DNA from: an uncultured Clostridia bacterium
GTDB taxonomy: Bacteria; Bacillota; Clostridia; Christensenellales; Borkfalkiaceae
Length of the DNA stretch: 64,000 bases
Reading direction: 5' to 3'
NCBI GenBank assembly: GCA_944354535.1
Contig: CALVPY010000001.1
Location: 33,381 to 97,380 of the forward strand
Shown piece by piece: positions 56,446 through 58,692 of the stretch (position 1 is the first letter of the stretch; every line of letters begins with the position of its first letter). The position numbers and the translations under genes were made by a program. Below the pieces are notes generated by a model that was not told the DNA's origin, ran no database searches, and worked only from the letters and a program-made list of their open reading frames with translations.

Positions 56446-58692
56446 ATGGAAAACAGAGAAGTCAAACTCGAGGTCAACGACCTCAAGATCTCCTTTAGGA
56501 CGTCCAACGGCAAGGTCCAGGCCGTCCGCGATATCAGCTTCAAGCTCTATAAGGGCGAAACGCTCGCCATCGTGGGCGAGTCGGGTTCGGGCAAGTCGGT
56601 CACGACGCGCGCCGTCCTCGGCATCCTCGCCGCCAACGCCATCAAAGAGGGCGGAGAGATCGTCTACGACGGCCAGGATCTCATGAAGATCTCCGAAGAG
56701 GACTTCCACAAGATCCGCGGCGACAAGATCGCCATGATCTTCCAGGACCCGCTCTCCTCGCTCAACCCCATCATGCGCGTGGGCAAGCAGATGACCGAGG
56801 CCATGCTCATCAAGGGCAAGCTCAGCCAGAAGGAGGCGCGCGTCAGCTTCAACACGACGCTCAAGCGCCTCAACGACAGCATGGACGAGGCGCTCGGCAA
56901 GGAGACCGCCTCCCGCAACGCCAAGAAGTGCAGCGACTTCAACAAGTTTGAAATCAAGCACCTCGAGCTCGAGAACGCTTACAACCGCGCCCGCGAGGCT
57001 GCTTCCGATGCCGTCAAGGACATCGACGACCTTGCGTTCGAGATCGAAAAGCACGCGGCACAGACGCTCGTCTCCGACGCCCGCGAGATCATCCGCCTCG
57101 CCAAAGATTCGGTGTCGCGCTATGTCGTCTACGAGCGTGCGGAAGAGCTCAAGGCGGAAGCGCTCAGGCTCAAAACGCTCATCCGCGTGCCCCTTTCCCA
57201 TCATGCGAAGAAGCTCGTTTCTTCCGTCATCCGCAAGGAGGCAAAGCCCTTTGCCTTCCCCGACGAAGACATCCTCGCTTCCCTCCGCAAGATGCGCGAG
57301 ATCCTTTCTGAGGCCGTCGCGTTCGAAAAGCCCAACTTCTTTGCGATGGGCTATTACCTCACTTTTGCCGGGCAGCCGCTGCCCGACATGGACGTGAAGC
57401 CGCTCAACGAATACCTCCGCAAGGTGCTCGACGAAAAGTTCATGCTCGAGTTCATCGACATCGCGAAGGAAGGGCTCATCTATTCTCACCGCCGTTCGCT
57501 CGGGAAGCAGAAGGAGGCGCTCGAAGTCATCGCCCGCCTCAAACCCGTCTTTGAGCAGGAGACGCTCGATCACGCGGAAGTCATCTCCGCCGCAAAAGAG
57601 ATCGCCTCTGCCGTCGAGGACGCGATCGACCGCCTCGAGATCATCAAAGACAACTCGGCATACACCTTCCGCACCAGCCTGCGCGAGGCCATCCGCCTCT
57701 ATTACGACGGCATCGAACGCAACAAGAAGGAAGAGAAGCGCTTTGCGCGCCAGACGGTTTCCTACGAGCGCAAAGTCGCCCGCGGCAAGACGCCCGACTA
57801 CGTCGTCGCCGACAAGAAGCTCGTCGACCTCGAAAAGGCTGCAAAGGACATCGTCATCGTGCTCAACCGCATCGAGGAGGATTTCAAGCGCCGCCTTGCG
57901 ATCGGTGAGGACGTCGACTTTGACGAGCGCACCGTCGCGATGGTGGATTACCTCAAGCAGAAGGCGTCCGACGTCGCGTATAAGGTCACGCACAACATGG
58001 CAAAGACGCGCGCTCTGAAGCTTCTCGAAGAGGTGGGCATCCCCGAACCGAGAAAGCGTTACCGCCAGTATCCCTTCGAGTTCTCGGGCGGCATGCGCCA
58101 GCGTATCGTCATTGCGATCGCGCTTGCAGCCAACCCCGACATCCTCATCTGCGACGAGCCCACGACGGCGCTCGACGTGACCATCCAGGCGCAGATCCTC
58201 GAACTCATCAACCGCGTCAAGGAAGAGCGTCAGCTCTCCGTCATCTTCATCACGCACGATCTGGGCGTCGTCGCCAATATGGCAGACCGCGTCGCCGTGA
58301 TGTACGCGGGCAAGATCGTGGAGATCGGCACGGCGGACGACGTGTTCTATTCGCCCGCGCACCCTTACACCTGGGCGCTGCTCTCCTCTATGCCCGACCT
58401 CGACACCAAGGAGAAGCTGGAGGCCATCCCCGGTACGCCGCCCAACATGATCTATCCGCCCAAGGGCGACGCCTTTGCCGAGCGCAACAAGTATGCGCTC
58501 AAGATCGACTTCGAGGCACAGCCGCCCATGTTCCGCATTTCGGATACGCACTATGCGGCGACGTGGCTGCTGCACCCCGACGCACCCAAGATCGACCCGC
58601 CTAAGTCGGTGACCGAGCGTATCGCCCGCATGAAGGGCCGCATGGCCGAAACGCAGGCGGCGCCGGAGGCGGAGCAAGCAGAAAAGGAGTGA
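56446..58692 (+). CDS. oppD: Peptide ABC transporter ATPase, OppD type, with about 390-residue helical insertion
   Basis: 748 residues versus a usual 330. Walker A GESGSGKS begins at residue 44 and the Q-loop Gln100 lies in [11 protein letters not shown]. About 390 extra residues, mostly helical and Lys/Glu/Ala-rich, separate it from the signature FSGGMRQR (from 546); normal spacing is about 55. Walker [12 protein letters not shown], the H-loop THD and the C-terminal oligopeptide domain ([15 protein letters not shown]) are normal. All catalytic motifs remain, so it should hydrolyse ATP. The insertion would emerge from the helical subdomain facing the coupling helices. Confidence 0.93.

Follow-up and report, generated by a model that had tools for sequence, protein, structure and literature searches.

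What does an insert of some 390 residues, placed between the Q-loop and the signature of an OppD ATPase, do in a peptide importer, and was it acquired alone or together with changes elsewhere in the transporter? The question was raised by a single gene in the window, that is, the whole stretch of 64,000 nucleotides analyzed from an uncultured Clostridia bacterium. The insert-bearing loop is part of the subdomain through which ATP hydrolysis is coupled to the permease; a natural insertion of 390 residues with intact motifs measures the extra mass tolerated at this coupling joint, and offers a natural handle on how movement of the helical subdomain drives transport.

Organization of the opp operon

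Six forward-strand genes, oppA-oppB-oppC-oppD-oppF followed by a DUF3899 gene, lie in a row at ∼51.3–60.4 kb of the window, and the oppABCDF gene order is shared with relatives. The first gene, oppA (51324–53840), encodes an enlarged, lipoprotein-like family 5 solute-binding protein of ∼838 aa that matched PF00496 in two stretches. It is followed by oppB (53939–54901), a permease of ordinary size (PF00528; top NCBIfam match, Opp3B); oppC (54903–56444), a permease of 513 aa (PF12911 and PF00528); oppD (56446–58692), an ATPase of 748 aa recognized from PF00005, PF08352, and its motifs; and oppF (58697–59980), an ATPase of 427 aa recognized from its motif positions. The last gene (59982–60389) starts one base past the oppF stop and encodes a small membrane protein of 135 aa (DUF3899; PF13038, E = 1.2e-14).

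A promoter-like site upstream of oppA (51062–51090, forward strand; TTGACA-17-TAAAAT, 11/12) and a terminator-like stem-loop 3′ of the DUF3899 gene (60484–60511, forward strand) were both consensus matches only; three promoter-like sites were found in total, versus 4.7 expected from shuffles, and 11 terminator-like sites, versus 8.5 expected. The layout from oppA to the DUF3899 gene would fit a single transcript, with candidate sites that are not clearly above shuffle frequency. Elsewhere in the window, an AdoCbl-II riboswitch (38624–38704) was the sole Rfam match at the gathering score.

Motifs of OppD and anatomy of the insert

The membership of OppD in the Opp family stands, and the intactness of its catalytic motifs, asserted in the initial annotation, was borne out. 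All five were found, namely Walker A (from residue 44), the Q-loop (Gln100), the FSGGM signature (from residue 546), Walker B (LICDEP, from residue 567), and the H-loop (His604); their residues are invariant or ≥90% conserved among 79 aligned sequences, including that of the window, and the oligo_HPY C-terminal region is present (PF08352, 2.4e-15). The distance from Walker A to the Q-loop is 55, both here and in the 78 insert-type OppDs, of 80, in which the pattern could be read. From Gln100 to the signature there are 446 positions (447 from the F of FQDP), compared with 57–60 in insert-free Opp ATPases of the same order, among which the single exception is locus L030 at 100; the lengthening was thus indeed about eightfold, as first estimated.

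Comparison with homologues placed the insert at OppD residues 128–517 (56827–57996, forward strand), for which the interval originally proposed, 56830–57990 with ∼390 residues between Q-loop and signature, was essentially exact. In insert-free OppDs of the same order, the helix after the Q-loop leads almost directly into the helix before the signature, and the insert therefore occupies the loop joining two helices of the helical subdomain, the subdomain in which it had been suggested to sit. Lys, Glu, and Ala together make up 32% of the insert versus 26% of the remaining protein. Conservation is seen in the stretches PNFFxxGYY and KDSxAYTF, at the invariant N194, Y279, T280, and Y292 (insert numbering), and at Thr515, close to the end of the insert, which is also invariant.

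The four C-terminal cysteines of the [4Fe-4S] cluster are missing: no Cys occurs in the C-terminal parts of 77 of the 80 OppDs and one in each of the other three, and the C-terminal parts of 77 OppFs contain 0–2. Insert-free relatives of the same type have also mostly lost the cluster cysteines (0–2 Cys), which suggests that these were lost before the insert was gained; being shared, the loss does not exclude Ami/Opp3-type membership. Substitution of the Fe-S cluster by the OppD and OppF inserts was considered and, because insert-free relatives mostly lack the cysteines too, rejected as a simple replacement.

Homologues of the insert and selection

A scan with two peptide patterns, using one genome per species, recovered 261 stretches, 197 of them coding for relatives of the insert; the best 80 of these 197 were kept, and were thus selected for carrying it. 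In every one of the 80 loci, the insert was placed within the Q-loop/signature interval of OppD. The Q-loop–signature distance was 422–462 in the 78 loci where it was read by pattern, and ∼449, from motif positions, in L049 and L050, in which YQDP replaces FQDP. Two other records have inserts 98 and 97% identical to that of the window, the latter titled Candidatus Gallimonas gallistercoris (Gallimonas is a genus of Clostridia). In 14 chosen pairs, omega was 0.05–0.34 for the insert and 0–0.10 for the ATPase, although some dS values approach saturation. Evolution of the insert in these pairs is several times faster than that of the ATPase, and the omega of the insert, well below 1, indicates that it is retained by selection.

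These data bear on the most mundane explanation, in which the length of OppD reflects an assembly error, a frameshift, or a spliced element (intein). Its sole support is that unusual length, and it can practically be dismissed: open frames of similar length occur in other assemblies, two of them being the above records with 98 and 97% insert identity; no intein family was among the matches of the insert in Pfam and NCBIfam; the residue preceding Thr515 is Val, Ile, or Leu, never Asn or Gln, in the aligned rows; and purifying selection acts on the insert. Excision or frameshift was likewise not found in the 80 loci kept, which carry open homologues of similar length at the same place.

Predicted fold of the insert

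For the insert alone, AlphaFold2 (76 rows) returned a model of 13 helices and no strands with a mean pLDDT of 95.1 and a pTM of 0.85; as predicted, the insert is an ordered, well-folded all-alpha domain, in agreement with the helical character first ascribed to it. The model of full OppD (79 rows) had a mean pLDDT of 79.2 and a pTM of 0.69, and E. coli OppD as its top fold match. In this model, a predicted helix (112–150) starts in the ATPase and continues into the insert, two others (492–511 and 516–529) return toward the signature, and these junction helices have a pLDDT of ∼82–95; the other long helices span residues 152–201, 317–369, and 408–445, the longest measuring 53 residues. The ATPase was modeled less well than the insert, with residues 1–110 in blocks of 59–77 and one of 85, and a pLDDT <50 over most of residues 645–710.

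By sequence, no PDB entry matched the insert under E 0.1 (best E 0.11), and by Foldseek no PDB fold matched at E ≤0.001 (best E 0.065; TM ≤0.25 among the matches shown). With the window insert as query, NCBIfam gave no match at E 1 and Pfam a single one, at E 0.17. No Pfam or NCBIfam family was common to more than two of 10 insert relatives, and weak matches of single relatives, the best being DUF6217 at 0.0004 in one of the 10, were taken as chance. No description of the OppD insert was found among the open-licence papers listed. With its insert and its enlarged partner subunits, the importer looks like a genuine, as yet undescribed variant of a well-known transporter.

Distribution and phylogeny

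A profile of the insert alone was matched in 46 genomes among 297 from the order, in seven among 391 from the class (the other six lying outside the order), and in one among 398 from the phylum, each count including the genome of the window itself; since only 15 genomes of its class, its own included, are in the phylum sample, that sample is informative on other classes but little on its own. The same insert was not found in ordinary OppDs of many phyla with a described function. Within the genus, long matches to whole OppD were obtained from eight of 37 genomes (G000–G036, some incomplete). The insert-bearing OppD is thus an accessory trait, patchy within Clostridia and even within the genus. 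The 80 records are titled Clostridia, Lachnospiraceae, Oscillospiraceae, and others, titles that are unreliable for MAGs.

A phylogeny of ATPase-domain pieces, comprising 84 insert, 24 insert-free, and eight Fe-S-type rows, excluded duplicates of loci already present and rows with a pattern-variant Q-loop (L049 and L050 among the 80). All 84 insert rows fell on one side of one branch (support 99/96; 98% of 200 bootstrap trees), in a tree whose output carried a long-branch warning and whose insert-free rows were mostly best search matches, i.e., picked by similarity. The nearest insert-free rows, L145 and L156, are OppD-OppF fusions with neither insert; these fused frames adjoining the insert clade lie at 1108–3114 and 1120–3120 of their respective loci. 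The most divergent carrier, G925 (L131), gave a weak profile match (5e-16), and has similar lengths, a DUF3899 gene, and an OppF Walker A–Q-loop distance of 83.

Other OppDs of the same genus depart from the ordinary in a different interval. In a second, Fe-S-type opp operon, the Walker A/Q-loop interval of OppD contains inserts that vary in size (L031, L033, and L034, each from base 1; L025, 118–2115; L038, 595–2106; and L026, 1537–2859), with Walker A–Q-loop distances of 386, 342, 161, and 121, compared with 60 in the window's own genome (L127, 5871–7097). By eye, the L031 insert consists of repeats of ∼30 residues, and that of L025 contains long hydrophobic stretches. A further same-genus OppD without the clade insert (L021, 1456–3258) has a Walker A–Q-loop distance of 290.

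Enlarged partner subunits and the DUF3899 gene

Beyond what the initial annotation had noticed, the enlargement extends to OppF, OppC, and OppA, and oppF is followed by a DUF3899 gene. Partner lengths were taken from the best-scoring uncut ORF per locus, read from stop to stop, and are upper bounds; the insert-free comparison set comprised 20 operons (18 loci plus L132 and L133). OppA measured 823–953 aa in 55 of the 57 insert-type loci where it was uncut, the exceptions being L106 (split frame) and L077, versus 534–677 aa in the seven insert-free operons where it was recognized. The largest insert-free OppAs (667 and 677 aa) belong to the sister group of the insert clade, so growth of OppA may predate the insert. 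In OppC of the window, ∼200 extra residues, inferred to be extracellular, separate an N-terminal transmembrane domain (35–83) from the permease core (324–509); OppC lengths were 505–632 aa in 74 of the 76 insert-type loci with an uncut frame (402 in L077 and 789 in L095) versus 302–389 aa in all 19 uncut insert-free operons. In OppF of the window, an additional ∼110 residues separate Walker A (46) from the Q-loop (Gln212). This interval spanned 91–306 in all 76 insert-type loci read by pattern (79 have OppF) versus 51–52 in 18 of 18 insert-free operons read, and the insert-free OppFs of L166 and L182 showed an ordinary Walker A–signature distance of 110.

Of 79 insert-type loci, 76 have the DUF3899 gene 3′ of oppF and in the same orientation, with a frame that starts ≤71 bases away in all but two; the three loci without it (L073, L100, and L089) are cut short by a contig edge, either within oppF or 250 bases past it. 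Among the 20 insert-free operons, a DUF3899 relative was found in one (L171), upstream of oppB. No paper was found under the name DUF3899 among open-licence papers, and the family now gains a testable gene context. From the comparison of insert-type and insert-free sets, we infer that the enlargement of OppA, OppC, OppD, and OppF and the presence of DUF3899 all fall on one branch; their joint occurrence counts as a single event, confined to one part of the tree, and not as many independent ones. The whole transporter, membrane gene included, was apparently remodeled at once in gut-associated Clostridia. One insert-type operon (L077, 3034–5594) has no recognizable OppB and short OppA and OppC frames, reflecting a deletion or a misassembly.

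The OppD and OppF inserts were also compared as possible copies of one domain, a relation that was rejected: the OppD-insert profile matched none of 71 of the 79 OppF proteins (cut or pattern-variant ones being excluded), and hhalign, run with 65 OppF inserts <150 residues (six longer ones excluded), returned a probability of 0.3%.

The same observations weigh on the reading of the insert as a neutral ornament that grew from a tolerant loop and now needs only to fold. Its faster evolution relative to the ATPase would suit such an origin, and Opp ATPases of this lineage do tolerate growth, given the large Walker A/Q-loop inserts of the second-operon OppD. Its narrow length range, invariant residues, and omega well below 1, together with its co-occurrence with larger OppA, OppC, and OppF and with DUF3899, argue otherwise, and we consider an ornament improbable.

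Comparison with Mollicute Opp ATPases

Kinship with the insertions of Mollicute Opp ATPases, raised as a question in the initial annotation, did not hold up. The top NCBIfam matches were NF043079 for OppD (468.6 bits) and NF043078 for OppF (408.3 bits), below the curated cut-offs of 740 and 800, respectively, and these Mollicute models are also long (561 and 649 positions). OppD residues 8–83 matched positions 2–77 of NF043079, residues 86–127 (the Q-loop region) matched 299–340, and the part after the insert matched from 339 onward; these piece matches assign the ∼220 extra positions of NF043079 to the Walker A/Q-loop interval and none to the region after the Q-loop. Mollicute OppD therefore has its extra positions before the Q-loop, whereas the window OppD has its insert after it. 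In OppF, the main extra part of both the window and the Mollicute proteins lies between Walker A and the Q-loop, with the N-terminal piece of the window protein at 2–71 of NF043078 and the Q-loop piece at 401–429.

The ATPase domains themselves are related, as the portion of OppD C-terminal to the insert has NF043079 as its best NCBIfam model (376.5 bits). Descent of the insert from the Mollicute OppD insertion is nevertheless very hard to sustain: the extra positions are at a different site, with none at that of the window insert; none of 10 members of the insert family matched NF043079 when searched alone; and 24 insert-free rows of the same C-terminal type exist. On site and absent match, this kinship was rejected.

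Proposed function of the insert

The larger OppA and OppC outside, the larger OppD and OppF inside, the ordinary OppB, and the DUF3899 membrane protein would together form one importer. Within it, the insert is a predicted helical domain that would have grown out of the helical subdomain at the loop connecting two of its helices, in the Q-loop/signature interval. Because helices 112–150, 492–511, and 516–529 link it to the ATPase, it should follow the rotation described for that subdomain in E. coli Dpp, and it could act as a lever-like arm touching further cytosolic parts of the transporter, namely the insert-bearing OppF, the DUF3899 protein, and the ends of the permeases. Through such contacts it would stabilize the complex and adjust both ATP hydrolysis and coupling; the wide length range of the OppF insert (Walker A–Q-loop 91–306) argues against one fixed contact between the OppD and OppF inserts. 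On the outside, the larger OppC and OppA might provide a larger docking surface, as has been put forward for the enlarged AmiC of pneumococcus (PMC11192437). The anatomy, predicted fold, purifying selection, restriction to one clade, and joint occurrence with the other changes are the basis for proposing a helical arm that would move with the helical subdomain and stabilize or regulate an Ami/Opp3-type transporter. We advance this proposal tentatively, at somewhat less than even confidence; a putative effect of the insert on transport coupling is plausible.

In the main rival reading, the insert would serve as a platform on which another protein of the cytosol (e.g., a peptidase or a regulator) docks to take the incoming peptide or report transport. 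The conserved aromatic and polar stretches PNFFxxGYY and KDSxAYTF and the invariant N194, Y279, T280, and Y292 could form such an interface, and UvrA, also an ABC ATPase, has UvrB-binding and DNA-binding insertion domains in its signature domain I (PMC6486640). No partner was found, however: downstream of oppF (up to ∼4 kb, less at contig ends) DUF3899 alone is common to many loci, and the next clusters occur in 15 loci, on the opposite strand, and in seven loci, as a membrane protein that is ABC exporter-like by eye; upstream neighbors were read for the window locus alone. A docking platform therefore seems to us unlikely, though a reading to be taken seriously, and the lever-like arm is retained as the preferred proposal.

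Comparison with known systems

The locus is predicted from its genes to be an Ami/Opp3-type peptide importer in a remodeled, six-gene form, a view as tentative as that of the arm, of which it forms part. The best permease families were Opp3B (231.2 bits) and Opp3C (270.1 bits), below their cut-offs of 480 and 450. The five-subunit layout is common to Streptococcus AmiACDEF. The enlarged permease is AmiC in that system, which we take to be the counterpart of OppB, whereas it is OppC in the window. AmiC has 498 residues versus 308 in AmiD, and its enlarged extracellular part is proposed to clamp the binding protein (PMC11192437). The window further differs from Ami/Opp3 by the OppD and OppF inserts, the larger OppA, and the added DUF3899, the AmiE and AmiF sequences lying outside this comparison.

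In SMC and Rad50 proteins, extra domains separate the half of the ATPase containing the Q-loop from the half containing the signature. The OppD insert likewise falls between these halves, as in UvrA-type ATPases, and a weak PF02463 match spans OppD residues 38–619 (27.9 bits; cut-off 40). In contrast to SMC and Rad50, no long paired coiled coil was predicted, the longest helix having 53 residues, and OppD serves a membrane importer. It is conceivable, if rather improbable, that this is a new ABC importer architecture that also acts as a sensor or performs mechanical work, in which an arm of no known fold at the site of the SMC/Rad50 coiled coil would convert the ATP-driven swing of the OppD helical subdomain into movement of an external or regulatory partner, with OppA, OppC, OppF, and DUF3899 remodeled as a unit.

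E. coli DppABCDF and OppBCDF also have two different ATPases per transporter, as here, and E. coli OppD (a chain of 336 aa) is without such an insert. E. coli DppD and DppF each hold a [4Fe-4S] cluster through four Cys that keep the complex together (PMC12136057), whereas these cysteines are lost in OppD and OppF of the window. The helical subdomain of E. coli DppABCDF, the counterpart of the one from which the insert projects, is described as rotating by ∼20 degrees between states (PMC12136057).
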